A DNA stretch of 64,000 nt from Natranaerobius thermophilus JW/NM-WN-LF. Its GTDB lineage: Bacteria > Bacillota > Natranaerobiia > Natranaerobiales > Natranaerobiaceae. The DNA lies in the NCBI RefSeq assembly GCF_000020005.1, contig NC_010718.1, forward strand, positions 2,934,001 through 2,998,000. Reading direction: 5' to 3'. Position 1 is the first letter of the stretch, and each line of letters opens with the position of its first letter. The notes under the pieces are model-generated. The model saw only the letters and a program-made list of their open reading frames with translations, was not told where the DNA came from and made no database searches. The translations under genes were made by a program, and so were the position numbers. Below are positions 14,058 to 29,914 of the stretch, one piece after another.

Positions 14058-15056
14058 TTACCATCTAAATGCAGCACAGGCTACTGCAAATCCCACACCA
14101 GATCCGACGAATAATACTAAATCTCCTGGAGATAGTTTATCTTCGCTTAAAGCTTTGTTAAGGGCAATGGGAATGCAAGAGGAACCGGTATAACCGTATT
14201 CACCCATAATATAAGTGGTTTTTTCTTCGGGAAGATCTATTATTTTCATAACTTCCTGGATTACCATCTTATTTATTTGAGTAAAGAATATATGATCAAT
14301 ATCTTGATAGTTAAGTCCCTGGGATTGTAACACTTCTTCTATTAGAGGAGGCCATATTTTAATATTGCGATCAGGGGGCAAAGGTTTTAAAAATGTCAGT
14401 TGATGTTCTCCTTTTTGCAACCGTTCTTCATTCATAGGGTTTTTAGCGCCTCCCCCATAGATTCCTAGGAAATCATACTGGGTTCCATCAGCGATCATTT
14501 TACCGTTCATAAAACCCCTATCCTGATTTTTGGTGCCTGATAAAACTACGGCTCCGGCACCATCGGCAAAAATAGGTAGAGCACTGGAGTCTGATTTGTC
14601 TACGAATTTAGACATATTATAAACTCCGATTAATAATATGTGTCGATAAGCTCCCGTTTGTATCATCCTTGAAGCCACTTCCAGTCCACTAACAAATCCG
14701 GCACAGGAAGCATTTAAGTCAAAGGTCCCCGCATTAAAAGTCTCTAAACGTCCTTGAACCACCGAGGAAGTAGCCGGTGTGATGTATTCCGGAGTGTCTG
14801 TAGCTATAATCAATAACTGAATATCATCTTTGGATAAACCCGCATTTGCTATGGCTTGTTCTCCGGCTTTCACAGCCATATCAGCAGTGCTTTCATCTTT
14901 TCCAGTAAAATACCGCTGTTTTATCCCAAGTTTTGTCTCAAGGCCATCCTTCAAAGGATGGCCTAATATTTCTGCAATATCATTATTAGTGTACAGATGT
15001 GGAGGAAGATACTTGCCTGTACCTGTAATCACGGCATTTTGTACTAAGCTATTCAT
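14058..15056 (-). CDS. KAS III-like (FabH-fold) protein lacking active-site His and Asn
   Basis: 332 aa, full length for beta-ketoacyl-ACP synthase III. The nucleophilic Cys is present (LNASCAGFVSG, about residue 118). The position of the FabH PHQAN histidine reads FFTQIN (Thr), and the asparagine of GNTSAAS reads YGYTGSS (Tyr). In FabH, His and Asn bind malonyl-ACP and drive its decarboxylation, so ordinary condensation is unlikely; acyl transfer or another thioester reaction is possible. ATG 15056 follows AAGGAGGATTAATCA. It starts 3 bases after the alpha/beta hydrolase stop and is the last gene of the cluster, ending at a strong terminator. A second, different KAS III-like gene is at the head of the cluster (28589-29620). 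Confidence 0.82.
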   Translation of the reverse strand: MNSLVQNAVITGTGKYLPPHLYTNNDIAEILGHPLKDGLETKLGIKQRYFTGKDESTADMAVKAGEQAIANAGLSKDDIQLLIIATDTPEYITPATSSVVQGRLETFNAGTFDLNASCAGFVSGLEVASRMIQTGAYRHILLIGVYNMSKFVDKSDSSALPIFADGAGAVVLSGTKNQDRGFMNGKMIADGTQYDFLGIYGGGAKNPMNEERLQKGEHQLTFLKPLPPDRNIKIWPPLIEEVLQSQGLNYQDIDHIFFTQINKMVIQEVMKIIDLPEEKTTYIMGEYGYTGSSCIPIALNKALSEDKLSPGDLVLFVGSGVGFAVACAAFRW

Positions 15057-15059
15057 TGA

Positions 15060-15875
15060 TTAATCCTCCTTCAAAAACTCCCGAATTAAATTATTAGCTG
15101 TGTCAGGTCTCTCCATAAAAAACAAGTGCCCACCTTCTGATAATAGTTCCAGGCGAGAATGTGGAATTTTATCGTGCAGCAACTGAGCATTTTCCCAGGG
15201 AACTACCCGGTCACCTTTAGCTGCTAATATAAGAGTGGGTGCCTTTATATGGGAAGTTTTTTCTTCACCATTAAAAGCTGCGCCAGCTTCCATTTGTCTC
15301 AGATATGCGTGTTTTGGCTGGGGATTTGTAGATTTCTCGTGTAAAATTTTATCTATTATATCTTGGTTTTCGTCCCATAACCGACGGTCTAGAGCAACAC
15401 CCACGGCATTTCTTAATTCATCCAGGGAAGAGTATTCACCCCCACCTTTTTGCATAACTTCTAAGGTTTCCTGGGGAATCGGAATACTATTGGGCCCACC
15501 AAAGGATGTTGAACAAAGAATCAACTTCTCTACCTTGTCAGGATAGCTATACGCCAGTTCTTGGGCAATGAACCCGCCTAGAGAAACCCCTAAAACATTG
15601 GCTTTGTCAATTTCAAGGGCTTCCATTAGCTGAGCTGCATCCTGGGCCATCAATTCAACGGAATAGGGATCTTGGGGTTTATCTGAACCCCCAACCCCTC
15701 TATTGTCAAATTTGATTAGTTGAAAATTCTGTTGTAATTTCTCCTGTCGATACCACATCCAGGTAGCATAACCCAAGCCTTCTATCAACAAGAGAGGAGT
15801 CCCCTCACCTTTTACTTCATAATATATATTAATACCATTGGCTTTAACTGTAGGAATAATCACCCCTCCTTTCAA
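15060..15875 (-). CDS. Alpha/beta hydrolase
   Basis: About 265-271 aa. The nucleophile elbow is GVSLGG (Ser about 99), the oxyanion region GLGYATWMW, and the catalytic His is in SEGGHLFFMERP near the C-terminus; the acid is probably Asp in AAKGDRVVPW. This is the 3-oxoadipate enol-lactonase/haloalkane dehalogenase-like branch, often esterases or C-C hydrolases in degradation pathways. The start is unclear: a perfect AAAGGAGGGG is followed at the right distance only by ATT codons, while TTG 15875 and GTG 15863 overlap or precede the site. Coupled to the KAS III-like gene; the binding-protein gene lies 61 bases upstream. Confidence 0.83.
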   Translation of the reverse strand: MKGGVIIPTVKANGINIYYEVKGEGTPLLLIEGLGYATWMWYRQEKLQQNFQLIKFDNRGVGGSDKPQDPYSVELMAQDAAQLMEALEIDKANVLGVSLGGFIAQELAYSYPDKVEKLILCSTSFGGPNSIPIPQETLEVMQKGGGEYSSLDELRNAVGVALDRRLWDENQDIIDKILHEKSTNPQPKHAYLRQMEAGAAFNGEEKTSHIKAPTLILAAKGDRVVPWENAQLLHDKIPHSRLELLSEGGHLFFMERPDTANNLIREFLKED

Positions 15876-15936
15876 GGGATAGACTTCTCATATATTTCTC
15901 ATCTACTAATAGTACACTAGCAAGGTAAGTAAAATA

Positions 15937-17160
15937 TTATTCTCCGAATTCTCTGAAATCAGTTACCTGTTCAAATCTATACTCACCATTTTCTTCAACC
16001 ACTTCGCTGACAGACATATGAGTTACACCTTCACGGACTCCGGGCTCATAAGAGATTTCAGGTGCCAGACCTTCTGTAAAGTGAAGCTGATTCATAGCAT
16101 CAATATAACCGTCCCAAGTCAAGTCATCTCCTGCTTCTTCAAGACCTGCCACAAAGGTTTCAGCTGCTACCCAACCGGCCATAGTATAAGCATTAATAGG
16201 TTCGTCAGGGTAATATTCTTCCATTGCGTCATTTAGAGGTTGAAGGGCCTGTTCATCCATCTCTAACCAGCCCAGGGAATAAAGTTCTGTCATTACTTGA
16301 GGAGCTTGAGGGGCTGCCATTTCTAAAAATGAATCATCCGTGTTAGAATATGTGGTCATTATGGGAACCTCGTAAGAGGCGTCCTCAAAATCACCCAATA
16401 TATTAGCCGCATCGTCTGACAGGGCATATAGTAATACCATATCCGGATCCTGATCTCTTGCTAATTGAATTTGACTGGAAAAGTCCGTATCTCCAGGGTT
16501 AAAGGAGATCTCTCTATCTGCATCTAGGGCATCTTCTCGTCCCATTTCCTCAAGACCAGTTTTGATTCCCTGTAGTCCATCTTGGCCCACATCGTCATTT
16601 GCATAAATAACAACCAATTCATCTGCATCAAACTCATCTATAGCGTATTCTGCCATAAGTTTACCTTCATAATCGTAAATAGGTTGAACAGGAAAAAAGT
16701 TTTCACCTGCTTCTCTAAATTCAGAAGCACCTCCTCCAAAGTAAACCGAGGGAATTCCCTCTTCTCTTACCATATCCATAGTTGCCAGGATCCCAGGAGT
16801 TCCAAGCTGACCAACTATAGCAAAGACTTCCTCTTCATAAATTAAAGTCTCCATGCCTGAAATAGCGTTATCTGGTTCAAATTCATCGTCCTGAACTTTT
16901 AGGTTGATTTCTCGTCCATCCACGCCTCCCTCTTCGTTTATTGTCTTGAAATAGGATTCCATACCAGCGTAGTAAGGGCTACCCATAAAAGCAAAGGGCC
17001 CTGATTGTGGACCAACACTGCCCACTAAAATCTCGTCTTCCGTTACTCCTTGAGAAAGTTCTCCATTTCCAACCTCTTCTTCACAACCTGTCATCACAGC
17101 TACCATCAGTATCGCCAAAATAGCGATTGGCAGTACAGCTCTGTTACAAACTGTTAACAT
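15937..17160 (-). CDS. Liv-type ABC transporter substrate-binding lipoprotein
   Basis: 407 aa. A lipoprotein signal (hydrophobic residues 9-23, lipobox VMTGC) places the protein on the outer face of the membrane. The mature part is a type I periplasmic-binding fold of the branched-chain amino acid family (GSVGPQSGPFAFMGSPYYAG at the start, then IVGQLGTPGILATMDMVREE). Homologues bind amino acids, amides, urea or aromatic acids, so the ligand is open. Highly acidic. ATG 17160 follows GAGGGAGGGAC. In an intact operon it would follow livF; an IS1111-like element now lies between them. Confidence 0.88.
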   Translation of the reverse strand: MLTVCNRAVLPIAILAILMVAVMTGCEEEVGNGELSQGVTEDEILVGSVGPQSGPFAFMGSPYYAGMESYFKTINEEGGVDGREINLKVQDDEFEPDNAISGMETLIYEEEVFAIVGQLGTPGILATMDMVREEGIPSVYFGGGASEFREAGENFFPVQPIYDYEGKLMAEYAIDEFDADELVVIYANDDVGQDGLQGIKTGLEEMGREDALDADREISFNPGDTDFSSQIQLARDQDPDMVLLYALSDDAANILGDFEDASYEVPIMTTYSNTDDSFLEMAAPQAPQVMTELYSLGWLEMDEQALQPLNDAMEEYYPDEPINAYTMAGWVAAETFVAGLEEAGDDLTWDGYIDAMNQLHFTEGLAPEISYEPGVREGVTHMSVSEVVEENGEYRFEQVTDFREFGE

Positions 17161-17299
17161 AATGTCCCTCCCTCTATAAATTAATTATTTCTTCAATATA
17201 CTCACTCATTCTCAAGATTTCACTACCATCCATTTTAAGGACTAGGAAGAAAATTTCATATAATGAAATTTTTGTAAAACAGGAGTGCCTTTAAATAAG

Positions 17300-17520
17300 G
17301 GTTGTTCCTGGCAAAATATGGTGGCACATTTAATGGATCTCCACTTGTTCCTTGGTGGTTTTACCTCCCATATCTCACTGGGTCCATTATGGCCCTTATA
17401 AATTCCTTCGTTCTACCTAGCCAAGGGTGGAGGCCAGTTTTGCTCCTTAGCAGGGTCAATGCCCGAATGGATTATTATGACTGGCTTCTCCGTGCTCCTT
17501 TTGTGGATGTAGTATAAATT
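17300..17520 (-). ncRNA. Candidate seekRNA/bridge RNA region of the IS1111-like element
   Basis: This is the GC-richer non-coding stretch 3' of the transposase gene. On the minus strand AATGGA...TCCATT can enclose a large loop (17335-17393). The octamer AAGGAGCA occurs twice here (complement at 17441-17448 and 17493-17500) and once at the element's 5' end (18941-18948). Guide-like matches between the non-coding RNA and element ends are expected in this family. Exact RNA ends cannot be set from sequence. Confidence 0.4.
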
Positions 17521-17542
17521 CTTAAGACTCCAATTTGGCTGC

Positions 17543-18826
17543 TTATGCAGCATCCTGCAATAAATTTAATGAACTGTTCTTTAACATCATCCTGCCATTA
17601 TAAGGTGTCTTTTTGGTACCTAGGGCAAACAAAACTCTGATCAATCTACACGCTAATGCTACAAGCGATTGTTTCTTTTTTAAGGGATTTTCTGGCCTTG
17701 TGGTATAATAATCGTGTAATAACTTAAATTCAGGATTCTTGGCTACTAATGGAATCACGCAGCGATATAAGAGTCCTCTCAAACGAGGTCGACCTCGTTT
17801 GGTTATCTTGGTTTCACCTTTGTGCTTACCTGAACTGTTCTCTTTTAGATTTAAGCCTGCCAGCTTCTTAATTTGATTTGGATGTTGATAATTAGAAAGA
17901 TCACCCACTTCAGCCAAAAATCCTGCCACTGTTACCATCCCTACTCCAGGAATACTCATCATTTCTTCTGCTCCTGGAATTTCTTTTAAAATATTTTCTA
18001 TCTGAACAAGTACTTGTTCTAACTCTTCTATTAAAGCGTCATACTGCGACAATAGGGTTTTCAATTCTTGTCTTGCCATTATTTCGCCTTCTGTTATACC
18101 AGTACTATTCTTGGCTGCTTCTTTCAGCTTTCTTGCTCTTTTTTTACCTACTGCTCGATTCACTTCTCGTTTCCAGCAACTTACTATCTCTTCTTCACTA
18201 TGACCTAATATTTCTTTTGGTAAAGGGAAATTTTTTAGGGTTAATAGTGCTGCTTTTCCATCCCAGTTCTTAAACACTGTGCTGAATTCTGGGAAGTAAC
18301 GATCTAACCAATTGTCTATCCTACCTTTTACACGCCTTAAGTCATCTGTTAGCCGATCTCGCAAATTCATCCCATTCCGTAGTTCTGCATATATTCCTGT
18401 AGGGATATTGGGTACTGAGTAACGGCCATCTTTTACTAACTGTGCTATCACTTTTGCATCTTTAATATCATTTTTAGTTGGTGAGTTGTCGTCTAGTTCT
18501 TTGCTCTTTTTTACGTGATTTGGATTTACTAAAATAGTTTGGATACCTGTTTGCTTTAAAAATTGAGCTAGAGTCAGCCAGTATTGGCCAGTAGGTTCCA
18601 TACCTACTAAGACTTCTTCTTTTGCTTGTTCTTGTTTGATTACCTCTAGCCAACTTAAAAACTTCTTAAAACCTTTCCTGGTGTTTTCAAAGGTGATTGG
18701 TTTCGAAAACTCCACACCCCGAAAATCCTGAGCTCTTGCTACGTGTTCTGCTTTTGCAATGTCTACTCCGATAATCAAACTTGACTCTTTTACTTGATTA
18801 ATTCTCTCATTTTGGGTATACTTCAT
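17543..18826 (-). CDS. IS110-family transposase (IS1111-like)
   Basis: 427 aa, complete. The N-terminal RuvC-like DEDD domain begins IIGVDIAKAEHVA (first Asp), continues with GMEPTGQYW (Glu) and NDIKDAKVIAQL (last Asp pair). The C-terminal transposase-20 domain has IPGVGMVTVAGFLAEVGD (helix-hairpin-helix-like) and the Ser-bearing LAGLNLKENSSGKHKG. These enzymes move by RNA-guided recombination without making large target duplications. ATG 18826 follows GAGGAGG. No frameshift is visible, so the copy may be active. Confidence 0.93.
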   Translation of the reverse strand: MKYTQNERINQVKESSLIIGVDIAKAEHVARAQDFRGVEFSKPITFENTRKGFKKFLSWLEVIKQEQAKEEVLVGMEPTGQYWLTLAQFLKQTGIQTILVNPNHVKKSKELDDNSPTKNDIKDAKVIAQLVKDGRYSVPNIPTGIYAELRNGMNLRDRLTDDLRRVKGRIDNWLDRYFPEFSTVFKNWDGKAALLTLKNFPLPKEILGHSEEEIVSCWKREVNRAVGKKRARKLKEAAKNSTGITEGEIMARQELKTLLSQYDALIEELEQVLVQIENILKEIPGAEEMMSIPGVGMVTVAGFLAEVGDLSNYQHPNQIKKLAGLNLKENSSGKHKGETKITKRGRPRLRGLLYRCVIPLVAKNPEFKLLHDYYTTRPENPLKKKQSLVALACRLIRVLFALGTKKTPYNGRMMLKNSSLNLLQDAA

Positions 18827-18999: not shown

Positions 19000-19384
19000 T
19001 TATGTTCCCAGATAGGCCTCTTTCACCTGGGGATCTTCCCATAACTCTTTACTGCTGCCTGTTAATTTGAGTTTTCCTGTTTCCAAAATATACCCATAGT
19101 GGGCAATTTGCAGAGCTTGATAAGCATTTTGCTCTACCAGAAGCACTGTCACCCCGGCTTCGTTAATTTCCTTAATAATTTTAAAAATAGTATCAACTAT
19201 TTTAGGCGCTAGCCCTAAAGAAGGTTCATCTAACATCAATACCTTTGGATCAGCCATTAAAGCTCTGCCTAGGGCCAGCATTTGCTGTTCCCCCCCGGAT
19301 AACGTTCCTGCCAGTTGAGTTCTTCTGTCAGCGATAGCGGGAAAGTAATGGTACACCTGATTAAATTTATTCTCTAACCCCCCC
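19000..19384 (-). pseudogene. livF: livF, 3' part (severed by an IS110 element)
   Basis: From the element junction the frame reads GGLENKFNQVYHYFPAIADRR, then the ABC signature LSGGEQQML, Walker B VLMLDEPSLGLAP and the H-loop region, ending EAYLGT. That is exactly the C-terminal half of LivF, the second ATPase of the branched-chain amino acid transporter. It has no start codon or RBS of its own in the right place. The matching N-terminal half is at 20899-21247. Confidence 0.9.
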
Positions 19385-19630: not shown

Positions 19631-20830
19631 ATGTACTTTGTTGGGATTGATTGGGCTGATACAAAACATGATATCCTGGTCATGAGTGGCGATGGTAGAG
19701 AACTAGATAACTTCACTATTCAACATTCTAAAGATGGTTTTGAAACTCTAAAAAACAAGCTATTAAAACATGATGACGATCCTGAAAACTTCTATTGCTT
19801 AATTGAAACTAAACATGGACTTTTAACCCAATATCTTTTAGAAAATAACTTCACTGTTTATTCTGTTAACCCCAAACTAGTTGATGCTAGAAGAAAAGCT
19901 TCTGGGGCTAAAACTGACTTTATTGATGCTAAAATACTAGCTAATATGGGTAGATCAGAGCTCCATGACTTACATAAGCTAGAGCCTGATTCTGAACACA
20001 TTCAAGAACTTAAAGTACTCACCAGAGATCAAGAAGCTCTTATACAAGAAAGTGCTAGGTTAACAAATAGACTGATTTCAACCCTGAAAGAATATTACCC
20101 TGTTGCTCTTGAATTGTTTTCTAAAATAACTCTACCTGTTTCTCTAGCTTTTTTAAGGAAATATCCTACTCCAAAACAGGCTCGAAAAGCTAGTAGAGAT
20201 GAGATCTTTAAGTTTTTAAAAAAGCAAAAACATCCTAACCCTACGTCTAAAGCTAATGAGATCTTCACAAAGCTTCAAAAACCTAATTTAGAAGGAAACA
20301 GAGCCATTTGTTCTGCCAAGTCTAAGTTTTTATTTACTATCCTAGATCAGCTAGAGCCTTTATTAGAACATATTGATGAGTACGACAAGGAAATCGAGAA
20401 ACTTTTTAAGTCCCACTCTGACAGTAAAATTTTCGACAGCATACCAGGTGCCGGTAAGCGAATTGCACCGAGGCTGCTGGCAGAGTGGGGAGACGATCGC
20501 AGCCGTTATGCTGACGCCTCGGTGGTACAGGCCCTTGCGGGAACTTCACCAGTACTCCATCAAAGTGGCAAAATGCGTATTGTAAAAAGGCGACACTCTT
20601 GTATTAAGCCTTTTCGAAACGCTTTACATCAGTTCGCTCTACAAACTACAAGGTGGATCCCCTGGGCCAAAGACTATTACTACAAAAAGCGCAAAGAAGG
20701 TAAACAGCATCATGAAGCTGTAAGGACTCTAGCTAATATTTGGGTTAGGATACTCTTTGCTATGTGGGTAAACAAAGAGCCCTACAACGAAAGCAAGTTC
20801 ATAAAAGCTAGAGAAAAACACGCTGCTTAA
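19631..20830 (+). CDS. IS110-family transposase (RNA-guided recombinase)
   Basis: 399 aa, intact. RuvC-like DEDD domain: Asp in FVGIDWADTKHD, Glu in CLIETKHGLL, Asp residues in TDFIDAKILA. A coiled-coil region (about residues 120-260) links to the C-terminal domain with SIPGAGKRIAPRLLAEWGD and the catalytic-Ser segment LAGTSPVLHQSGK. ATG 19631 follows AAGGAGG. Its non-coding RNA region is 5', placing it in the IS110 rather than IS1111 group. It shares little obvious sequence with the transposase at 17543-18826, so the two arrived independently. Confidence 0.93.
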   Translation: MYFVGIDWADTKHDILVMSGDGRELDNFTIQHSKDGFETLKNKLLKHDDDPENFYCLIETKHGLLTQYLLENNFTVYSVNPKLVDARRKASGAKTDFIDAKILANMGRSELHDLHKLEPDSEHIQELKVLTRDQEALIQESARLTNRLISTLKEYYPVALELFSKITLPVSLAFLRKYPTPKQARKASRDEIFKFLKKQKHPNPTSKANEIFTKLQKPNLEGNRAICSAKSKFLFTILDQLEPLLEHIDEYDKEIEKLFKSHSDSKIFDSIPGAGKRIAPRLLAEWGDDRSRYADASVVQALAGTSPVLHQSGKMRIVKRRHSCIKPFRNALHQFALQTTRWIPWAKDYYYKKRKEGKQHHEAVRTLANIWVRILFAMWVNKEPYNESKFIKAREKHAA

Positions 20831-20898
20831 TTTAGTTTTAAAAGAGCAAAATTTCAAATTTGGATTACTGTATCCTGTGTTTCCAAAATTTTACAGAG

Positions 20899-21247
20899 TT
20901 TTATCCTTTACATAGAGAATCTTTTTATTTGTACTATAAGCCCCTATTATTAGATTCTCTTCAACTGTCATTCTGGGGAAAATCCGTCTACCTTCCGGTA
21001 CTTGTATTATCCCTTTGCTGACTATCGCTTCCGGAGATAGTTTGGTGAGTCTCTTATCCCCTGACAAAACTTCTCCCTGGGTAGGTGTTAATAATCCTGA
21101 AATAACTTTTAAAATAGTAGTTTTACCCGCTCCGTTTGCACCCAAAAGTGCTGTGATCTCCCCCTCCTCTATAGACATGTTAATGTCCTCTAAAGCTTTG
21201 ATATATCCGTAATAAGCTGTTATATCAACTAATTTAAGCACTTGCAT
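20899..21247 (-). pseudogene. livF: livF, 5' part (severed by an IS110 element)
   Basis: ATG 21247 follows AAGGAGAGG and opens MQVLKLVDITAYYGYIKALE with Walker A GANGAGKTT and the Q-loop region IIQVPEGRRIFPRMT. After YSTNKKILYVKDK the frame runs into the element and stops at 20891-20893. The LivF N-terminal half is normal up to this point. The start overlaps the livG stop by 14 bases, showing the original operon coupling. Confidence 0.9.
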
Positions 21248-22013
21248 CCTCTCCTTTACCCAGATAAGCCTCTTGTACCTTAGGGTTCTTTTGGATGTCT
21301 GCGGGATTGCCACAGGCAATTTTTCTGCCAAAGTTCATCACGGTAATTTTATGGCAAATTTCCATTACCAGGCTCATATCATGTTCTACTAGGATAACGG
21401 ATATGCCGAACTCTTCCTGAACTTGTGTAATTAACCCAGCCAAGTTTTGAGTCTCTCTTTCATTCATTCCTCCTGCCGGTTCATCAAGTAACAGCAATTT
21501 AGGCTGGGAGATTAAAGCCCGACCCATCTCAATCTTTTTCTGAATTCCAAGGGGTTGAGAGGTTGCTGGCATTTTCAAAGTATCCTTTATATTTAAAAAT
21601 TCCGCTATGGATTCAGCTCGTTCCCTGGCTTTAGATTCATCACTTAAACTACCAGGTAGGCTTAAACCTTCCAAAAGTAAACCACTTCTCATATTGGAAT
21701 GATAACCTACCATTAAGTTCTCTAGGACAGTTAAATTATCAAAAAGTTCCACATTTTGAAATGTCCTACTAATACCGCATCTTATTACCTGATGTGGTGA
21801 TAAATTTAAAACATTTTGCCCATTATCTAAAAGGATTTTTCCCTTATCCGGTGTATAGAATTTACTGATACAATTAAAAACGGTAGTTTTCCCCGCCCCA
21901 TTGGGTCCAATTAAGCCGTGAATCTCTTGTTGGTTTACATCCATAGATAACTCATTCACCGCAACTAAACCGCCAAAGCTTTTAGTTAAATTTTCAATTG
22001 ATAATAAAGCCAT
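21234..22013 (-). CDS. livG: Branched-chain amino acid-type ABC transporter ATPase LivG
   Basis: 259 aa from ATG 22013 (MALLSIENL), chosen over an upstream ATG at 22040 because CAGGGGGT lies before it. Walker A is GPNGAGKTT, Walker B LLLLDEPAGGMN, and the C-terminal LivG extension with NFGRKIACGNPADIQKNPKVQEAYLG is present. The signature region reads LGIQKKIEMGRAL, a variant of the usual LSYGQQRR. It pairs with LivF to energise LivHM. It starts 7 bases after the livM stop. Confidence 0.92.
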   Translation of the reverse strand: MALLSIENLTKSFGGLVAVNELSMDVNQQEIHGLIGPNGAGKTTVFNCISKFYTPDKGKILLDNGQNVLNLSPHQVIRCGISRTFQNVELFDNLTVLENLMVGYHSNMRSGLLLEGLSLPGSLSDESKARERAESIAEFLNIKDTLKMPATSQPLGIQKKIEMGRALISQPKLLLLDEPAGGMNERETQNLAGLITQVQEEFGISVILVEHDMSLVMEICHKITVMNFGRKIACGNPADIQKNPKVQEAYLGKGEDASA

Positions 22014-22020
22014 AGTAATA

Positions 22021-23103
22021 TCAACCCCCTGGTCCTTCATGTTTAGATTCCGAAGTTTGGTTTTCTTTTGAGCTATTAAAAGAATTGTCAGATTTAGCGC
22101 TTTCTGTACCTGATTGATAGCTCACACCGATAATTGCCAGACCACTTTTACCCCACTTGACAAACTTTCTGTATAGGCCTTCAGGAAAATAAATTATTGT
22201 CAAAATCAACAGTATCCCTGTAATAATAAAGTTAATGCTTCTAATTCCCTCTAAGACCGGTAAATTACGAGCCAAGTTAGGCACAATTTCTAAGAATGCA
22301 GCTCCAACCACACTGCCACCTATTGATGCCAGCCCCCCTATCACTGTCATAGCAACTAAATCAAGGGATGCTTCCAAACCCCAACGGGTTGGTTCAATAA
22401 ATCTGATCAAATGAGCATATAAACCTCCAGCAATACCCACGTAGAAAGTGCTGATAGCAAAGGCGATCATTTTATATTTGAACATGCTGATACCTACGGC
22501 CTGAGCTGCATGACTGCTATCTCTCATGGCCATTAAAGCCCTACCAGTTTTGGAGTTAAGTAAGTTATAAGCAAAGATAGCCAATATAACTAATACTATT
22601 GTGCCTAGTATTAATGAATGCTCACGTTGAATGATTTCAAGCCCAAATATTTCTGCCGGTGGTGCTCTTCTACCTGAAAAACCCTCGGTAAAAGCAGTCC
22701 ACTCAATGAATATGTGCTTAATGGTCATTCCGAGACCTAAAGTAGCGATAGCCAGGTAATGACCTTCTAATCTTAGAGCTATAGCTCCTAAAATTAGACC
22801 TAATAACATGGGAATGATTCCTGCAACTAACAATCCCAAAATAAAGGATAAATCCATAACTTGAGTGATATAAGCGGACAGATACGCTCCCAAGCCCATA
22901 AAAGCTATATGACCTAGGGATACTTGACCCGAATAACCTAACAGAATATTAAACCCAATGGCACCAATGGAATAAATGACGATCATATTCAGAATAGTCA
23001 TTTGTCCCCGGGAGAAGATGGGGAGATAGATATTCACTATCGGGACCAGTATAAATAATAAACCCAGGGTGATATACAGATAAGGCCGTTTGAATACAAT
23101 CAT
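22021..23103 (-). CDS. livM: ABC transporter permease LivM
   Basis: 360 aa with about 9-10 membrane segments and the LivM core IGFNILLGYSGQVSLGHIAFMGLGAYLSAY. The long cytoplasmic loop with LRLEGHYLAIATLGLG and GRALMAMRDSSHAAQAVGI is the coupling region for LivG/F. The last 40 residues form an unusual polar tail rich in Ser, Asn and Lys. ATG 23103 is 2 bases from the livH stop. Confidence 0.92.
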   Translation of the reverse strand: MIVFKRPYLYITLGLLFILVPIVNIYLPIFSRGQMTILNMIVIYSIGAIGFNILLGYSGQVSLGHIAFMGLGAYLSAYITQVMDLSFILGLLVAGIIPMLLGLILGAIALRLEGHYLAIATLGLGMTIKHIFIEWTAFTEGFSGRRAPPAEIFGLEIIQREHSLILGTIVLVILAIFAYNLLNSKTGRALMAMRDSSHAAQAVGISMFKYKMIAFAISTFYVGIAGGLYAHLIRFIEPTRWGLEASLDLVAMTVIGGLASIGGSVVGAAFLEIVPNLARNLPVLEGIRSINFIITGILLILTIIYFPEGLYRKFVKWGKSGLAIIGVSYQSGTESAKSDNSFNSSKENQTSESKHEGPGG

Positions 23104-23105
23104 TT

Positions 23106-23978
23106 TTACACCTTCTTTCCAGGGTTTTTACCTAGTATTCCGTAAGGCTTAATGATGAGAACTATAATAAGCAATCCATAAACAATCACCGTCTGCCAAG
23201 TTAAGGACACATAATAACCGATTAAGTTATCTGCAATTCCTATAATAAAACCACCAACAACAGGTCCGATAAAAGAACCAAAACCACCAAGTACTGCAGC
23301 AATAATTGATTTTAAGTGAACTTCCATCATCATAGTAGTAGAAACATTGGTAGTAGGAGCTACCAGGACTCCGGTGACAGCTCCCAAGGTGGCGGCAATT
23401 ATCCAGGACAACATGTGTATTCTTTGTACGGGAATTCCCATTAATCGAGCCGTTGTTTCATCTTGGGATGTTGCCCTGATTGCCATGCCCCAAAAGGTAT
23501 TGTTAAGAAGATAGAATAACACCAGCATAATGACTATAGTAACCCCTATGATAAACAGGGCATTAGGACGAAGGATAAGATCTCCCACGACTATGTTATC
23601 TGCAGCTACGGCAGGTCTCATATAATGCGAGTCTATCCCGAATATTGCAGCTGCCAAACCATCAATTGCCATTATTAACCCTAAGGTGATAATCATTCTT
23701 CCTATTTTACTAGCTTTATGGGCAGGTCTAATACAAAACCTGTGTACAAAGCCACCTAAAAACACGGCAAAGATAATTGCAGCTAAAAATGCAACAATAT
23801 AGGGTAAATCTCCTCTCCATAAAGTAAAGGCTAAAAAACTTGCAAACATGGCCATCTCGCCTTGGGAAAAGTTAATAATGGTGGCAGTTTGATAGATCAA
23901 AACAATTCCAAGGGCTGCTAGAGCATATAAACTTCCTGTTTCTAAGCCGGAAATTACTATCTGGATAAACACAGACAT
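23106..23978 (-). CDS. livH: ABC transporter permease LivH
   Basis: 290 aa with about 8 membrane segments. GSLYALAALGIVLIYQTATIINFSQGEMAM is the LivH signature (shown here across residues 15-45), and AIRATSQDETTARLMGI is the coupling loop. It forms the membrane channel with LivM. ATG 23978 follows GGAGAGTGGGAGTGG. It starts 24 bases after the alpha/beta hydrolase stop, so transporter and hydrolase are in one transcript. Confidence 0.92.
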   Translation of the reverse strand: MSVFIQIVISGLETGSLYALAALGIVLIYQTATIINFSQGEMAMFASFLAFTLWRGDLPYIVAFLAAIIFAVFLGGFVHRFCIRPAHKASKIGRMIITLGLIMAIDGLAAAIFGIDSHYMRPAVAADNIVVGDLILRPNALFIIGVTIVIMLVLFYLLNNTFWGMAIRATSQDETTARLMGIPVQRIHMLSWIIAATLGAVTGVLVAPTTNVSTTMMMEVHLKSIIAAVLGGFGSFIGPVVGGFIIGIADNLIGYYVSLTWQTVIVYGLLIIVLIIKPYGILGKNPGKKV

Positions 23979-24002: not shown

Positions 24003-24887
24003 TTATTGTAAAAAGCTTTCCAGTTCTTTCACTACCCATGGCAAATCGTCAATCATCAGATTATGCCCACAATGCTCATTAGTCACCAGTGTGGCAGAAA
24101 TTCCAAGGTCAGAGATAGTTTCTCTGATCATTTCCCTGGTGACAACCTGATCTAAATCACCCCAAAGTATTTTAGTAGGAAGTTTAATATCCCTCGCTTC
24201 TCCAGTACCGTAATCGACGCCATTGCTCACTTCACTGATGTTAAACTTGTTTAGGGCATTATAGACATCAATTAAATTGCGCTGAGTTAAAATATCGTCT
24301 AAGTATTCTTCATATTTTTCCGGGGAAGGTTGATTATTGACGTAGATTAGCTGATTCCAAATCTGACGTACAACTTCCCGATCTTTTCTTTGAAATGCCT
24401 TAACTATGGAATCAAATTCCTGGGCTACCTCATCCCTAGTGATAACCCTTTCTAAAGGTTGTTGCTCTTGATCACTTTTATAGATAGGATAACCACGTGT
24501 AGAAATGGGTGCTAATAGAGCTAGTTTATCAGCATATTGAGGATTATCGGCGATCAATTTCATAGCAACAGCACCGCCAGTTGACCAACCAACCAGATAG
24601 AATTTTTCAAGATTTAATTTATCGCAAAATTGGCGCAAAACCAGAGATAGATCTTTTATATCATTAATTGGTTTGTTATAAGTTGAGAGCCCAAAACCCG
24701 GCAAGTCTATGGCATAAATTTGATATTTCTCGGTCAAGTTTTCCATTAACAGATCCCAGTGCTTCGAAGAAGTCATATTTCCATGAACCAAAACCAAAGG
24801 ATAACTAGAGCTAGACCCTTCACGCCAGCGGTAATAAATTGTCTCCCCCCTGGGTATTTCCACAGAATCAATGTTAATCCGAACCAT
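24003..24887 (-). CDS. Alpha/beta hydrolase
   Basis: 294 aa. The HGNMTSSKHW oxyanion segment, nucleophile elbow GWSTGG (Ser about 121), acid in LWGDLDQVV and His in NEHCGHNLMIDD form a complete catalytic set of the alpha/beta hydrolase fold. No signal peptide, so cytoplasmic. It resembles C-C bond or ester hydrolases of degradation pathways; substrate unknown. ATG 24887 follows AAGGAGGG and overlaps the sigma-54 regulator stop by 14 bases. Different from the hydrolase at 15060-15875. Confidence 0.85.
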   Translation of the reverse strand: MVRINIDSVEIPRGETIYYRWREGSSSSYPLVLVHGNMTSSKHWDLLMENLTEKYQIYAIDLPGFGLSTYNKPINDIKDLSLVLRQFCDKLNLEKFYLVGWSTGGAVAMKLIADNPQYADKLALLAPISTRGYPIYKSDQEQQPLERVITRDEVAQEFDSIVKAFQRKDREVVRQIWNQLIYVNNQPSPEKYEEYLDDILTQRNLIDVYNALNKFNISEVSNGVDYGTGEARDIKLPTKILWGDLDQVVTREMIRETISDLGISATLVTNEHCGHNLMIDDLPWVVKELESFLQ

Positions 24888-26289
24888 AAATACCCTCCTT
24901 GAGTCCGTATTTTTTCATTTTTCGATACAGTGTAGACCTGGGTATATTCAATATACTAGCTGCCATGGATTTATTGAAATCATAAAGTTCTAGTGTTTCT
25001 CTGATAACCTTTTTTTCCACCTGTTCTACTATTTCATTTAATCCTTCTTCCGGATAACTTGGAGATTCGCTAATTTGCAATTGTTTTAGAAGTTTTATGG
25101 GTATATCGCTCTTCTCAATTACAGTGGTTTCAGCATTGACTGCCAAGCGCTGAATAATATTTTTCAGTTGCCTGATATTACCCGGCCAATCATATTTTTG
25201 AAGTACCTCAACTGCTTCTTGAGAAATTTGTTTATTCTCTCCCATTTCTTGTTTAGTTTCGTATAGAAAATCTTCTGCCAGTAGTGCTATATCTTCTTTT
25301 CGATCTTTAAGAGGCGGTATATTCAAAGTCAAGACATTTATCCGATAAAACAGGTCCTCTCTAAAATCATCAGTTGCAACTAACTCTTCTAAATTCTTAT
25401 TGGTTGCAGCTATAATCCTGACATCAACTTCCTGTTCTTTTTGGCCTCCCAGTCGCTCTACCTCCCCTTCTTGAATAACTCGCAAGAGCTTGGCCTGCAT
25501 TTTTTTCGGCATATCACCAATTTCATCAAAAAACAGGGTGCCTTTGTCGGCAAGTTCAAATTTACCTGGTTTTCCTTCTTTAGAGGCGCCTGTAAAAGCC
25601 CCACCTTGATAACCAAATAGCTCGGATTCCAGTAAATTTTCTGGTATAGCAGCACAGTTTACTTTGATAAAAGGATGATCAGAACGATGACTTTCATTGT
25701 GAATGGCCTGGGCAAAGATTTCTTTGCCCACTCCACTTTCACCCGTTATAAGTACATTTAAATCAGTTCGCGCTGCTTTTTTAGCATTTTGTTTACATGC
25801 TTCCATTTTAGAGGAACAGGTTTTGATATTATCCCAAGAATACTTAGTACTATAAATTTGGCGCACTCTTTGTTTGTAGTGGTCTAGTTTCTTTTCCAAG
25901 AGCTTATTTTTATCTGCCAAGTCCCTTAACTCTTTCAAATTTTGAAACAGAACCATGCCGAAACCGCCGACAATTTCACCACTGTCATAATCGTAAATTG
26001 GTATTCTGTGAACGACGGCATCTTCTCCTGTTCTTGCGAATTTATGTTTTTTAGCTATATCAAATTCACCGGATTTAAGCACAACGGGCCATTTGCTATT
26101 ATGATCGACCTCCACAGCCGGGCGACCTATGGCCTGCTGTTTTGAAACTTTCAATAGATCAGCAAAGGCTCTGTTTATCATTCGAATAATCCCTTTTTCG
26201 TCCACAAGGATCACTGGCACGGGAATCACATCAAAAATCCTGTCTACTACATCAACTACATTTTCAAAATTTTTGAGTATTGTGCTCAC
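24874..26289 (-). CDS. PAS-domain sigma-54-dependent transcriptional activator
   Basis: 471 aa from GTG 26289, chosen because GGGGGGAGG lies 7 bases upstream. Order: PAS domain (about 15-115, VILVDEKGIIRMINRAFADLL), coiled linker, AAA+ domain with Walker A GESGVGKE, the sigma-54-contacting GAFTGA loop, Walker B LFFDEIGDM and R-finger region, then a Fis-type HTH (FNKSMAASILNIPRSTLYRKM). Such proteins bind an upstream enhancer and open sigma-54 holoenzyme promoters in response to a ligand sensed by the PAS domain. A palindromic box is just before its start and related boxes lie upstream of a sigma-54 promoter at 29671-29687. Confidence 0.94.
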   Translation of the reverse strand: MSTILKNFENVVDVVDRIFDVIPVPVILVDEKGIIRMINRAFADLLKVSKQQAIGRPAVEVDHNSKWPVVLKSGEFDIAKKHKFARTGEDAVVHRIPIYDYDSGEIVGGFGMVLFQNLKELRDLADKNKLLEKKLDHYKQRVRQIYSTKYSWDNIKTCSSKMEACKQNAKKAARTDLNVLITGESGVGKEIFAQAIHNESHRSDHPFIKVNCAAIPENLLESELFGYQGGAFTGASKEGKPGKFELADKGTLFFDEIGDMPKKMQAKLLRVIQEGEVERLGGQKEQEVDVRIIAATNKNLEELVATDDFREDLFYRINVLTLNIPPLKDRKEDIALLAEDFLYETKQEMGENKQISQEAVEVLQKYDWPGNIRQLKNIIQRLAVNAETTVIEKSDIPIKLLKQLQISESPSYPEEGLNEIVEQVEKKVIRETLELYDFNKSMAASILNIPRSTLYRKMKKYGLKEGIYGSD

Positions 26290-26304
26290 AAGCAGACCTC
26301 CCCC

Positions 26305-26336
26305 CACAGATTTGTAGCAATACGCTACATTCTGTG
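26305..26336. promoter_or_regulatory. Palindromic box, likely activator binding site
   Basis: TGTAGC (26313-26318) and GCTACA (26324-26329) are exact inverse complements around 5 bases, extended by CACAG and CTGTG arms (26305-26309, 26332-26336). It begins 16 bases upstream of the regulator GTG, suggesting autoregulation. The same GCTACA half-site recurs at 29891 and 29909. Confidence 0.6.
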
Positions 26337-26426
26337 AGAAAATTTCGACAATAACCAGTTTAATCCTGCACTTGTTTTTTAGTTGTTAATAGATAATTGA
26401 TAATTGTTTACTTGGATTAGTAATCT

Positions 26427-27167
26427 CTACAGTACCACTCCACCGTCTACACCATAAACTGAACCTGTTACAAAAGAGCTGTCATCAGAAGCCAGAAAAC
26501 AATAAATATTAGCAACTTCTTCAGGACTTCCCAATCTATTAAGAGGTGATTTTTCCTGCATCATATTAACCACTTTCTCGGGCATTTCAGAAACCATTTC
26601 AGTTTCAATGAACCCGGGGGCCACTGCATTTACTCGTACATTATTTTTACCCAGTTCTTTAGCCCAAGTTTTGGTCATGCCTATGACTCCCCATTTAGTT
26701 GCTGCATAGTTGGTCTGGCCAAAATTTCCATATAGACCTACTACGGAAGAAGCATTTAGAATAACTCCCTGTTCCTGCTTTTTCATGATTTTGGCTGCTT
26801 TTTGGCCTACTAGGAATACACCTTTTAAATTGACATTAATTACTTTATCAAACTGTTCTTCTGCCATTTTAGTTAAAGTGGCATCAGCAGTCACTCCAGC
26901 ATTATTGACAACTACGTCCAACTTGCCGTAATCATTTACGATTTGATCAATGAGTTGATCTACCTGGGTTTTATTGGTCACATCAGTTACTTTGGCTTCA
27001 ATACTTCCTCCACTTGCACTCAGGGCATTCCTTGTCTCAGACAGTGTCTCTTCCTCTACATCGCAAATGATTACCTTAGCCCCTTCATCTACAAACTTTT
27101 GAGCTGTAACTTTACCAATTCCAGCTGCCCCTCCTGTAATCAATGCCACTTTATCTTGTAATTTCAC
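26427..27167 (-). CDS. SDR oxidoreductase, 3-oxoacyl-ACP/acetoacetyl-CoA reductase-like
   Basis: 246 aa from GTG 27167, which stands 7 bases after GGAGGG (a TTG 6 bases upstream is too close). Rossmann motif TGGAAGIG near the N-terminus, NNAG, and catalytic Ser/Tyr/Lys in NASSVVGLYGNFGQTNYAATK; the C-terminus VTGSVYGVDGGVVL is FabG/PhaB-like. The enzyme would interconvert a 3-oxoacyl thioester (or similar ketone) and its 3-hydroxy form with NAD(P)H. It lies 36 bases after the CoA-transferase stop. FabG in fatty acid synthesis is unlikely because no fab operon surrounds it. Confidence 0.88.
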   Translation of the reverse strand: MKLQDKVALITGGAAGIGKVTAQKFVDEGAKVIICDVEEETLSETRNALSASGGSIEAKVTDVTNKTQVDQLIDQIVNDYGKLDVVVNNAGVTADATLTKMAEEQFDKVINVNLKGVFLVGQKAAKIMKKQEQGVILNASSVVGLYGNFGQTNYAATKWGVIGMTKTWAKELGKNNVRVNAVAPGFIETEMVSEMPEKVVNMMQEKSPLNRLGSPEEVANIYCFLASDDSSFVTGSVYGVDGGVVL

Positions 27168-27203
27168 AATCAATCCCTCCAGTTATATTTAAAATTTAGT
27201 TCT

Positions 27204-28502
27204 CTAAATAATCCCTTTACTTTTTGCCTCAGATTTTAATTCTTCTCTAAAATTCGGGTGAGCTATATTTATTAAATTTTCGACTCGTTCTTTAATTGAG
27301 CGCCCTCTCAGGGCTGCTACACCGTATTCTGTAACTACATAATCTACGTCATTTCTAGGTAAGGTGATTCCTGCTCCTTCATTCAATGCAGGAACTATTG
27401 TCGAGATAGTATCATCTTTGACTGAGGAGTAAAGGGCAATAATTGACTTACCACCCTCTGACTTCTGTGAACCTACAGCTGTATCACATTGGCCGCCGGT
27501 TCCACTGTATATAGAATGACCCAGACTTTCAGAACAAACTTGACCTGTTAAATCTACCTGCAATGCAGTGTTAATGCTAACCATTTTCCAGTTATGACCA
27601 ATAATATATGGGTTATTTACTACTTTACCCCTCTGAAATTCCACTCCCAAATTATTGTCTAGAAAGTCATAGAGCTTTTGAGAACCATAGGCAAAGGTAG
27701 CCAACATTTTATCTTTCCAAAGGGTTTTTTTCCTATTAGTAATAACACCTTTTTCATATAGATCTACCATACCATCTGTCATCATTTCGGTATGAATACC
27801 TAAATCTCGTTTATCTTCCAGGGCTTTTGCTACTGCGTTTGGTATTCCACCTATTCCCAATTGCAAAGTTGACTCGTCTTCAACGAGTTCGGCAATGTAA
27901 CCACCTATCTTATGATCTTTGTCTGTAGGTTCTATTTCTGGCAAAGTAAATAGAGAAGTATTATTTTCAACTAAATAATCAACCTGAGATATATGAACAT
28001 TGATATCTCCATAGGTCCTGGGTAAATTTTCATTAATCTCTAAAATAACTATATTGGCTTGTTCTATAGCCTCTTTCTCGTAGGTAATACCAAGGGACAA
28101 GGAAAAATTCCCGTGTTTGTCCATTGGGGTGGCAGTACCTAGAAAAACATCAGGTTTTCTATATTGGAACCTACGAGTGGCCGATAAATGAAGATGATTG
28201 GGAATATAGCTGACATTGGCACCTTGTTTGGCAGCTTTTCTGACATGAGGGCCATAAAACCAGCTTTCCATGAAAAAACTATCCTCCATACCTTCCTGAC
28301 TGTAAAAACTATACTCTGCCAGAGGTAAACAGGTGATAACCCTGACATCCCTCACATAATCTCTTCTACTTCCCAGCTGGTTCATTAGCCCAGGGGGTTG
28401 TGAAGCAGCCATGGCTGTTACCACCTCATCACCGGATTTAATTTGTGAAACCCCTTCGTCCAAAGAAACTAGTTTTTTACGATATTCCTCTTTGAGACGC
28501 AT
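27204..28502 (-). CDS. Acetyl-CoA hydrolase/CoA-transferase family protein (4-hydroxybutyrate CoA-transferase-like)
   Basis: 432 aa from ATG 28502 (GGGAGGG upstream; a TTG inside the RBS is rejected). The catalytic Glu lies in VCSESLGHSIYSGTGGQ and the oxyanion glycines in GIGGIPNAVA; VTEYGVAALRGRS is the family C-terminal signature. Members move CoA between acetyl- or succinyl-CoA and a free acid, activating the acid for further metabolism. In this cluster it probably activates the imported carboxylate or releases a short acid. It follows the KAS III-like gene by 86 bases. Confidence 0.9.
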   Translation of the reverse strand: MRLKEEYRKKLVSLDEGVSQIKSGDEVVTAMAASQPPGLMNQLGSRRDYVRDVRVITCLPLAEYSFYSQEGMEDSFFMESWFYGPHVRKAAKQGANVSYIPNHLHLSATRRFQYRKPDVFLGTATPMDKHGNFSLSLGITYEKEAIEQANIVILEINENLPRTYGDINVHISQVDYLVENNTSLFTLPEIEPTDKDHKIGGYIAELVEDESTLQLGIGGIPNAVAKALEDKRDLGIHTEMMTDGMVDLYEKGVITNRKKTLWKDKMLATFAYGSQKLYDFLDNNLGVEFQRGKVVNNPYIIGHNWKMVSINTALQVDLTGQVCSESLGHSIYSGTGGQCDTAVGSQKSEGGKSIIALYSSVKDDTISTIVPALNEGAGITLPRNDVDYVVTEYGVAALRGRSIKERVENLINIAHPNFREELKSEAKSKGII

Positions 28503-28588: not shown

Positions 28589-29620
28589 TTAATTACCCCA
28601 TTTAATAACAGAGGCATTCCAGGCATAACCTATGCCTGCACTTACCCACACCACTAAATCACCATCTGTAATTTTTCCCTGTTCCAGGGCGAGCTCAGTT
28701 GATAAAATTTGATCGAATTGACCTAAATGGCCGTATTCTTCAAGATAAATAGATTGTTTTTCAGAAAGATTCAGTTCTTCCAGAACACCTTTGTGAGCTG
28801 ATTTTTTCATATGAAGAAGGGCTAGATAATCGATATCACTAGTGCTATATCCACTTTTTTCTACAGCGGTTTCAATCACTTTAAAGAAGTTCTTAATTGA
28901 TACTTCATCTAATCGCTCCTTCATACCCTCAGGATCCGTCACATCTAAGTAATTTTCTTTATTCTTGATGGCTTCACTGCTAATTGGTTGTTTAGTACCT
29001 CCTGCCGGTACTATTACATCTTCAGATAGAGAACCATCGGTTATAATTGAGCTTTCGAGCACTTTATTTTTGTTTAATCCTTTTTGCAAAATCATGGCGC
29101 CTCCACCAGATCCTAGATTATACATAAACCGTACTCGTGGATTTTCATAGTCAATAAAATCACAGTTCCTATAACCACCAGCCAACAACACTGTATTAAT
29201 ATCTGGATTAGCCATCATTAAAGACTTAGCTATCTCGATTCCAACTACCCCAGTCCCACAACGTTGACTTATATCAAAAGCCCAGGCATTTTCGGCCCCG
29301 ATTTCATACTGTAGTTTTATCCCGGCAGTCCATAGCAACCATTCTTTATGTTCTTCTCCAATATAGATGACCAGATCAATGTTCTCGGGATCTATTTCTC
29401 CTTTTTCAATTGCCCTATTGGCAGCCTTGATGCCCATTTCACAGGTGTGGTCTTCTTTTCCGGGGATTGGTTTCTGTTTAATTCCCATTTTGTCCTCGAT
29501 TACATCCTGAGGAACGCCGCTTTTATTTGCCAATTCCTGACTAGTCATAAAATTATCGGGTATATACGTAGCCAGGGAAACGATACCTATACTGTTTCTG
29601 TTCATCTGTTGATCTGACAC
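28589..29620 (-). CDS. KAS III-like (FabH-fold) protein with altered triad
   Basis: 343 aa from GTG 29620, which is 8 bases after GGAGG; a GTG at 29629 directly abuts that site. The Cys nucleophile is in ISQRCGTGVVG. The FabH His is kept (ALLHMKKSAH), but the Asn of GNTSAAS is replaced in EYGHLGQFD by His. That Asn helps decarboxylate malonyl-ACP, so a non-decarboxylating condensation, a thiolase-like cleavage or an acyl transfer is more likely. It is the first gene after the sigma-54 promoter at 29671-29687. It is only distantly like the second KAS III-like protein of the cluster. Confidence 0.83.
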   Translation of the reverse strand: MSDQQMNRNSIGIVSLATYIPDNFMTSQELANKSGVPQDVIEDKMGIKQKPIPGKEDHTCEMGIKAANRAIEKGEIDPENIDLVIYIGEEHKEWLLWTAGIKLQYEIGAENAWAFDISQRCGTGVVGIEIAKSLMMANPDINTVLLAGGYRNCDFIDYENPRVRFMYNLGSGGGAMILQKGLNKNKVLESSIITDGSLSEDVIVPAGGTKQPISSEAIKNKENYLDVTDPEGMKERLDEVSIKNFFKVIETAVEKSGYSTSDIDYLALLHMKKSAHKGVLEELNLSEKQSIYLEEYGHLGQFDQILSTELALEQGKITDGDLVVWVSAGIGYAWNASVIKWGN

Positions 29621-29670: not shown

Positions 29671-29687
29671 TTGCAATTTTCATGCCA
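29671..29687 (-). promoter_or_regulatory. Sigma-54 (-24/-12) promoter of the cluster
   Basis: On the minus strand TGGCATGAAAATTGCAA has the GG and GC doublets exactly 10 bases apart and matches the sigma-54 consensus TGGCAC-N5-TTGCA at all but one position. It ends about 50 bases before the GTG of the KAS III-like gene. The cluster itself encodes a sigma-54 activator. Confidence 0.85.
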
Positions 29688-29744
29688 TTTTTTATTCTAC
29701 CTATAAGAACAGGCAAAACCCCTTTATAAAGCTCTAAATAAAAA

Positions 29745-29780
29745 ATAACCCTGCCCGTTATCTGCACAGGACAGAGTTAT
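29745..29780 (-). terminator. Hairpin with U-tract upstream of the sigma-54 promoter
   Basis: ATAAC and GTTAT end arms, with CTG/CAG and CC/GG inner pairs and two mismatches, form a hairpin; on the minus strand it is followed by ATTTTTTATTT. No minus-strand gene is seen immediately upstream, so it either insulates the promoter from antisense transcription or ends a short unannotated RNA. Confidence 0.45.
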
Positions 29781-29826
29781 CATCTGTTGTATATTAATAC
29801 AATCTACTTTTGATAGTGTTTTTCTA

Positions 29827-29914
29827 TGTTGCAAACTGGCCTTTCATATCAGACAATACTTGTGTTGCGGACATGCTTTTGTTTTATTTTGCTACAATGT
29901 TTCGTTTTGCTACA
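29827..29914. promoter_or_regulatory. Cluster of activator half-sites (candidate enhancer)
   Basis: GCTACA occurs at 29891-29896 and 29909-29914 (18 bases apart, both in TTTTGCTACA), and the near-match TGTTGC at 29827-29832 and 29863-29868. They lie about 140-240 bases upstream of the sigma-54 promoter, the usual enhancer distance, in the 424-base gap 29621-30044. The half-site is the same as in the palindrome before the regulator gene. No gene is visible in the rest of the gap. Confidence 0.55.

Follow-up and report, generated by a model that had tools for sequence, protein, structure and literature searches.

A sigma-54 operon control region in Natranaerobius thermophilus with predicted activation by the operon's own PAS/AAA+ regulator

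An uncharacterised operon of Natranaerobius thermophilus JW/NM-WN-LF that begins with a fabH-like gene raises the question of which protein activates it and from which DNA sites. The operon lies in a window of 64,000 nucleotides (NC_010718.1, positions 2,934,001 to 2,998,000), and window coordinates are counted from the first letter of that stretch. The original prediction held that a -24/-12 promoter before the first gene is served by upstream boxes, that a PAS/AAA+ protein encoded in the same cluster binds these boxes and activates the cluster, and that this protein also controls its own gene through a palindrome beside its start. Here, we consider the region, at a probability of about 85% and on the basis of sequence comparison, to be the control region of a sigma-54 operon that would be activated by the operon's own regulator through TGT-N11-ACA sites and that includes a box for self-control. 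This reading provides a testable assignment of a regulator and a box to an operon of fabH-like, CoA-transferase, PHA-depolymerase-like hydrolase, and Liv importer genes in several Bacillota lineages.

The promoter and the genes of the operon

The predicted promoter element TGGCATGAAAATTGCAA occupies 29687-29671 of the minus strand with the GG-N10-GC spacing and is confirmed by its fit to the sigma-54 consensus (Table 1); about 50 bp separate it from the start codon of the fabH-like gene. The consensus TGGCAYR-N4-TTGCW has 22 matches genome-wide and the reversed pattern has 0, so the -24/-12 promoter class is real in the Natranaerobius thermophilus genome, which has one rpoN gene (a single PF04552 match, E 4e-64) and, as candidate sigma-54 activators, 15 PF00158 matches, 13 of them strong. 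On the same strand, a terminator-like hairpin followed by ATTTTTTA lies at 29738-29775, between the third enhancer site and the promoter; it is directed at the operon and could protect the sigma-54 promoter against read-through.

Table 1. Features of the operon and its control region (strand as in the window; a point marks a feature without strand)
Feature	Position	Strand	Details
Enhancer site 1 (putative), TGTAGCAAAACGAAACA	29898-29914	-	TGTAGC-N8-ACA; 227 bp before promoter
Enhancer site 2 (putative), TGTAGCAAAATAAAACA	29880-29896	-	TGTAGC-N8-ACA; 209 bp before promoter; 18 bp from site 1
Enhancer site 3 (probable), TGTATTAATATACAACA	29785-29801	-	TGT-N11-ACA; 114 bp before promoter
-24/-12 (sigma-54) promoter of the fabH-like operon, TGGCATGAAAATTGCA	29672-29687	-	12/12 match to TGGCAYR-N4-TTGCW
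fabH-like thiolase-fold enzyme (NCBIfam PRK06840), first gene	28589-29620	-	NF005308 547 bits, cut-off 315; start GTG after GGAGG, read from sequence
Acetyl-CoA hydrolase/CoA-transferase family protein	27204-28502	-	PF13336, PF02550
FabG-like short-chain dehydrogenase	26427-27173	-	NF004198, just above cut-off
RNA hairpin, palindrome at tip, 3' arm over most of the regulator SD	26299-26342	-	-26.7 kcal/mol, z -4.33, 0/200 shuffles as stable
Palindromic box TGTAGC-N5-GCTACA, proposed autoregulatory operator	26313-26329	.	24-40 bases upstream of regulator start codon
PAS/AAA+ (GAFTGA)/Fis-type HTH sigma-54 activator, recognition helix IPRSTLYRK	24874-26289	-	PF00158, PF25601, PF02954, PF00989; start by SD; placed by tree
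Alpha/beta hydrolase, intracellular short-chain PHA depolymerase family	24003-24887	-	NF050089 375 bits, cut-off 300
LivH, LivM, LivG-type ABC importer genes	21234-23978	-	PF02653 in both permeases; order kept in relatives (BLAST)

From this promoter the sigma-54 operon would run through the fabH-like, CoA-transferase, fabG-like, regulator, PHA-depolymerase-like hydrolase, and Liv importer genes, a cluster whose role would be the processing and import of small organic acids. A 14-bp overlap joins the 3' end of the regulator gene to the hydrolase gene, so that expression of the hydrolase and Liv genes together with the regulator is probable. At the far end, livF is split into an N-terminal part (20891-21331) and a C-terminal part (19000-19356), with an IS110-family transposase gene on the opposite strand between them (19631-20830), and because of this interruption by an insertion element the strain may lack a working importer. 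A second IS110-family transposase gene is located at 17543-18826. Beyond it (window 14058-18826), genes for a Liv-type substrate-binding protein (15937-17160), another alpha/beta hydrolase, and a second fabH-like protein follow on the same strand and are probably the rest of the operon.

Candidate enhancer sites and the regulator predicted to bind them

The original prediction placed enhancer boxes at two GCTACA and two TGTTGC words upstream of the promoter. The GCTACA words (29891-29896 and 29909-29914) are present, but they are only halves of the full TGTAGC-N8-ACA sites 2 and 1, the latter of which agrees in 14 of 17 letters with the box at the regulator gene when this is read as TGTAGCAATACGCTACA. 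The TGTTGC words also exist (29827-29832 and 29863-29868), but as boxes they are unsupported and were dropped, since neither belongs to a TGT-N10/11/12-ACA site; they look incidental, although weak half-sites are possible. Site 3 had been overlooked; as sites, it and the distal halves of both site 1 and site 2 are weak. Together the three belong to the TGT-N10-12-ACA class of enhancers, being inverted TGT/ACA repeats that are present several times about 100-250 bp ahead of the promoter and are kept in orthologous loci.

Chance words in AT-rich intergenic DNA, with the -24/-12 element alone being real, would agree with the incidental look of the TGTTGC words and with the one-mismatch copies of the palindrome, which occur at four further places in the genome, near background. 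Such an explanation is nevertheless highly improbable: two TGTAGC-N8-ACA sites in the 330 bp upstream of the promoter were reached in 0 of 5000 shuffles, three TGT-N11-ACA sites in the same 330 bp were reached in 3 of 5000 (mean 0.17), and the layout is strongly conserved across genomes. When the genome was scanned for TGTAGC-N5-GCTACA, as had been proposed with the original prediction, the only exact copy of this perfect 12-base palindrome in 3.19 Mb proved to be the one at the regulator gene. The looser TGTAGC-N8-ACA occurs at 20 places, exactly three of them in the window and all three in this cluster. Among the 22 listed sigma-54 promoters, the pair of TGTAGC sites stands only before the fabH-like operon, and apart from these two no TGTAGC-N8-ACA lies within 500 bp of any of them; a wider regulon in the same genome was accordingly rejected. 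Two other sigma-54 promoters of this genome, each adjoining its own activator gene, show the enhancer layout of the window with different box letters: L007/L039 (G000:C2:2792842) has three TGT-N12-ACA sites, 18 and 45 bp apart, and L017/L028 (G000:C2:1927850) has a TGT-N11-ACA pair 19 bp apart.

The regulator encoded within the operon combines a sigma-54 activation domain (PF00158, 248 bits, with GAFTGA read in the translation), a Fis-type HTH, and a PAS domain, which places it among the enhancer-binding proteins. In the proposed mechanism, this PAS/AAA+/Fis-HTH protein would bind as dimers to TGT-N11-ACA, of which TGTAGC-N5-GCTACA is the best form, at -227, -209, and -114 from the promoter element. 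Its PAS domain would sense a signal, presumably an intracellular one, upon which the regulator would oligomerise, loop to RNA polymerase-sigma-54 at 29687-29672, and open the promoter with ATP. Activation of the cluster by this protein, as originally proposed, is thus supported by its GAFTGA motif and Fis-type HTH, by the single rpoN gene, and by sites 114-227 bp before the promoter.

The assignment of the boxes to this protein draws on a search for relatives of the regulator in 398 genomes of the phylum, which returned regulators of 48-56% identity, most of them adjoining fabH-like genes. In Thermoanaerobacter, the orthologous PAS/AAA+ regulator is 55% identical. Behind its gene stand, in order, TGTAGCGAAAAGCTACA, one or two further TGT-N11-ACA sites, and the promoter TGGCACTTTTTTTGCT; in L136, L139, and L188, Liv, fabH-like, CoA-transferase, and hydrolase genes come next. 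The exact TGTAGC-N5-GCTACA stands there 205 bp before the -24/-12 promoter (11/12 match) of the matching operon, and it is present in all eight loci of the Thermoanaerobacter group that were inspected, which represent one genus. Thermoanaerobacter wiegelii (NC_015958, L139) shares with the window a 55% identical regulator, an identical box, a -24/-12 promoter, and the same enzyme and transporter families; it differs in that the regulator gene precedes the promoter and has its own sigma-70-like promoter with a site, TGTCCTAAAATGATACA, directly after it, and in that no fabG-like gene was found in the operon by BLAST.

More distant loci (L190-L198) keep the layout with different box letters, often TGTAC. 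Within 210 bp before each promoter, 12 loci together have 30 TGT-N11/12-ACA sites against 1.67 +/- 1.20 in shuffles (maximum 6); 24 of the sites have a spacer of 11 and six a spacer of 12, whereas every other spacer from 5 to 19 gives at most five. Pairs 17-19 bp apart recur in the orthologous loci, typically with a third site. Boxes directly upstream of all fabH-like genes were also sought and were mostly absent, because in the relatives the promoter follows the regulator gene and not fabH. Most of the 80 named loci belong to Bacillaceae and have a fabH-hydrolase-fabG-Liv cluster; these clusters carry neither a strict -24/-12 element nor an adjacent regulator ortholog, so control there is likely of another kind. 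A close ortholog of the regulator occurs in 6 of 37 genomes in the class of G383 (the Thermoanaerobacter group), all of one genus, and G001, the nearest family member of the window, has no regulator match at the close-ortholog level. The distribution of the regulator is patchy, perhaps through gene transfer.

The letters of the box also vary with the recognition helix. A tree of 49 activators places the window regulator within a clade of ten (SH-aLRT 99) with the helix IPRxxLYR, and a sister clade of nine (SH-aLRT 99) has ISRSxLY[DE]K or ISRTNLYSK. Boxes with at most one mismatch from TGTAGC-N5-GCTACA occur in the window, in Thermoanaerobacter, and at L199 and L200; the L204 box, TGTAGCGTTTCGCAACG, has two mismatches, no TGTAGC box is recognisable in L203 of the IPRxxLYR clade, and L175 lacks a nearby promoter. 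The sister clade has the same layout with other letters and 0 boxes at one mismatch or fewer. Counted by lineage, the contrast is 4/6 against 0/9 (Fisher p 0.011, phylogeny ignored), and since one ancestral change could account for the difference between the clades, it is supporting evidence and not proof. In the class of G234, a search for more IPRxxLYR regulators found only that of G234 itself. The pairing of IPRxxLYR with TGTAGC, and of ISRSxLYxK with other letters (often TGTAC), could help to read specificity in Fis-type activators.

A different regulator of the genome might own the boxes, considering that at least 12 other well-scoring PF00158 proteins are encoded and that one of these activators, L006, has the similar helix IPRSTLYYR. 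We regard this as very unlikely: the box accompanies the orthologous regulator and operon in Thermoanaerobacter, the other activators of the genome have different TGT-N11/12-ACA letters at their own promoters, and the sigma-54 promoter nearest L006 has no TGTAGC-N8-ACA nearby. The assignment of the box as the predicted binding site of the PAS/AAA+ protein, in agreement with the original prediction, is well supported: the same box precedes the -24/-12 promoter of the matching operon in Thermoanaerobacter, close to the regulator's ortholog, and other helices go with other boxes in the same positions.

The palindrome at the regulator gene

The palindrome TGTAGCAATACGCTACA is present beside the regulator start, as had been described. 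The GTG at 26289, with the SD GGGGGGAGG ahead of it at 26297-26305, is the most likely start, and it sets the distance of the palindrome from the regulator gene. A TGT-N11-ACA site just before the regulator start, at 24-40 bp in the window and about 31-50 bp in Thermoanaerobacter, lends weight to the earlier proposal of self-control, but such a site is absent in all 11 other loci, and the fabG-regulator gap of the window, where the box lies, showed no recognisable sigma-70 promoter. In Thermoanaerobacter, the site comes immediately after TTGACT-N18-TATAAT, a position that by analogy would suit repression of the kind that PspF exerts on its own gene. Self-control of the regulator is plausible on these grounds, though less certain than binding or activation, and the perfect box 24 bp before the regulator gene would then act as its site, most likely by negative feedback through repression.

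The same palindrome can be drawn at the tip of an RNA hairpin, with a 12-pair lower and a 6-pair upper stem, whose stability is given in Table 1. Its lower stem extends over most of GGGGGGAGG, which makes translational control a live rival or addition. It is possible, though rather unlikely, that the palindrome acts in RNA and not in DNA, hiding the ribosome-binding site of the regulator so that read-through transcripts would yield little regulator; the outer arms of the hairpin, unneeded for a 17-bp protein site, would fit such a role. Against it, the letters of the palindrome match the enhancer sites of this operon, in Thermoanaerobacter the identical 6+6 letters form an enhancer site behind the regulator gene, with no SD involved, and no close relative was found for base-pair covariation of the hairpin. 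A DNA site for self-control is the reading that we prefer.

Hairpins recur among the relatives. Five of 11 orthologous loci each have one TGT-N11/12-ACA enhancer site at the tip of an inverted repeat whose extra arms measure 6-16 bp; these sites are located, in coordinates oriented along the regulator gene, 155 bp before 8058 in L190, 77 bp before 7855 in L196, 172 bp before 7167 in L197, 79 bp before 6609 in L198, and 169 bp before 8125 in L200. The sites of L190 and L197 are terminator-like with a T-run, and none of the 79 other TGT-N11/12-ACA sites of these loci has extra arms of at least 5; L192 (-101) and the L195 pair look similar to the hairpin-tip sites by folding. A tentative and rather unlikely extension is that the regulator family embeds an enhancer box in an RNA hairpin, so that the palindrome would be dual, binding the activator as DNA and ending or limiting activator expression as RNA; the hairpin would hide the ribosome-binding site in the window, and in relatives the site would form the tip of a terminator-like hairpin behind the regulator gene. 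A literature search for enhancer sites within terminators found no paper combining both. If functional, enhancer boxes nested in hairpins would represent an unusual double use of one sequence.

Relation to known sigma-54 regulons

Nie et al. 2019 describe 15 Clostridiales activator groups with TGT-N10-12-ACA sites in several copies 100-250 bp before the promoter (PMC6615313). Its PAS-type regulons (AhcR, PrdR, AdhR, CrbR, and others) resemble the window in the PAS-AAA+-Fis architecture, in multiple TGT/ACA inverted repeats that precede a -24/-12 promoter by 100-250 bp, and in a regulator that adjoins its target operon. Unlike the window regulator, none of the groups in Table 1 of that paper controls a fabH-like/CoA-transferase/Liv operon, and its main text has no mention of Natranaerobius, Thermoanaerobacter, or fabH. 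PrdR (NCBIfam NF041552) is likewise a sigma-54 activator, of clostridial amino-acid metabolism, with upstream sites of the same class; its operon is different, and an identification of the window regulator as PrdR was rejected because this best-scoring family gives 469.5 bits against a cut-off of 795. The sequence comparisons give good support to a regulon that would be new with a mechanism of a well-known kind, and the pairing of this regulator with its DNA box appears to be previously undescribed.

The pspF gene is divergent from its target and shares its sites with it, whereas the gene of the window regulator lies inside the operon and has a box of its own. PspF of Escherichia coli, which is without a regulatory domain (PMC3128695), is the activator of a sigma-54 operon and, from the sites it binds, exerts negative control over its own expression, which is sigma-70-driven (PMC3709507). 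The window regulator would resemble PspF as an enhancer-binding protein with proposed self-control.
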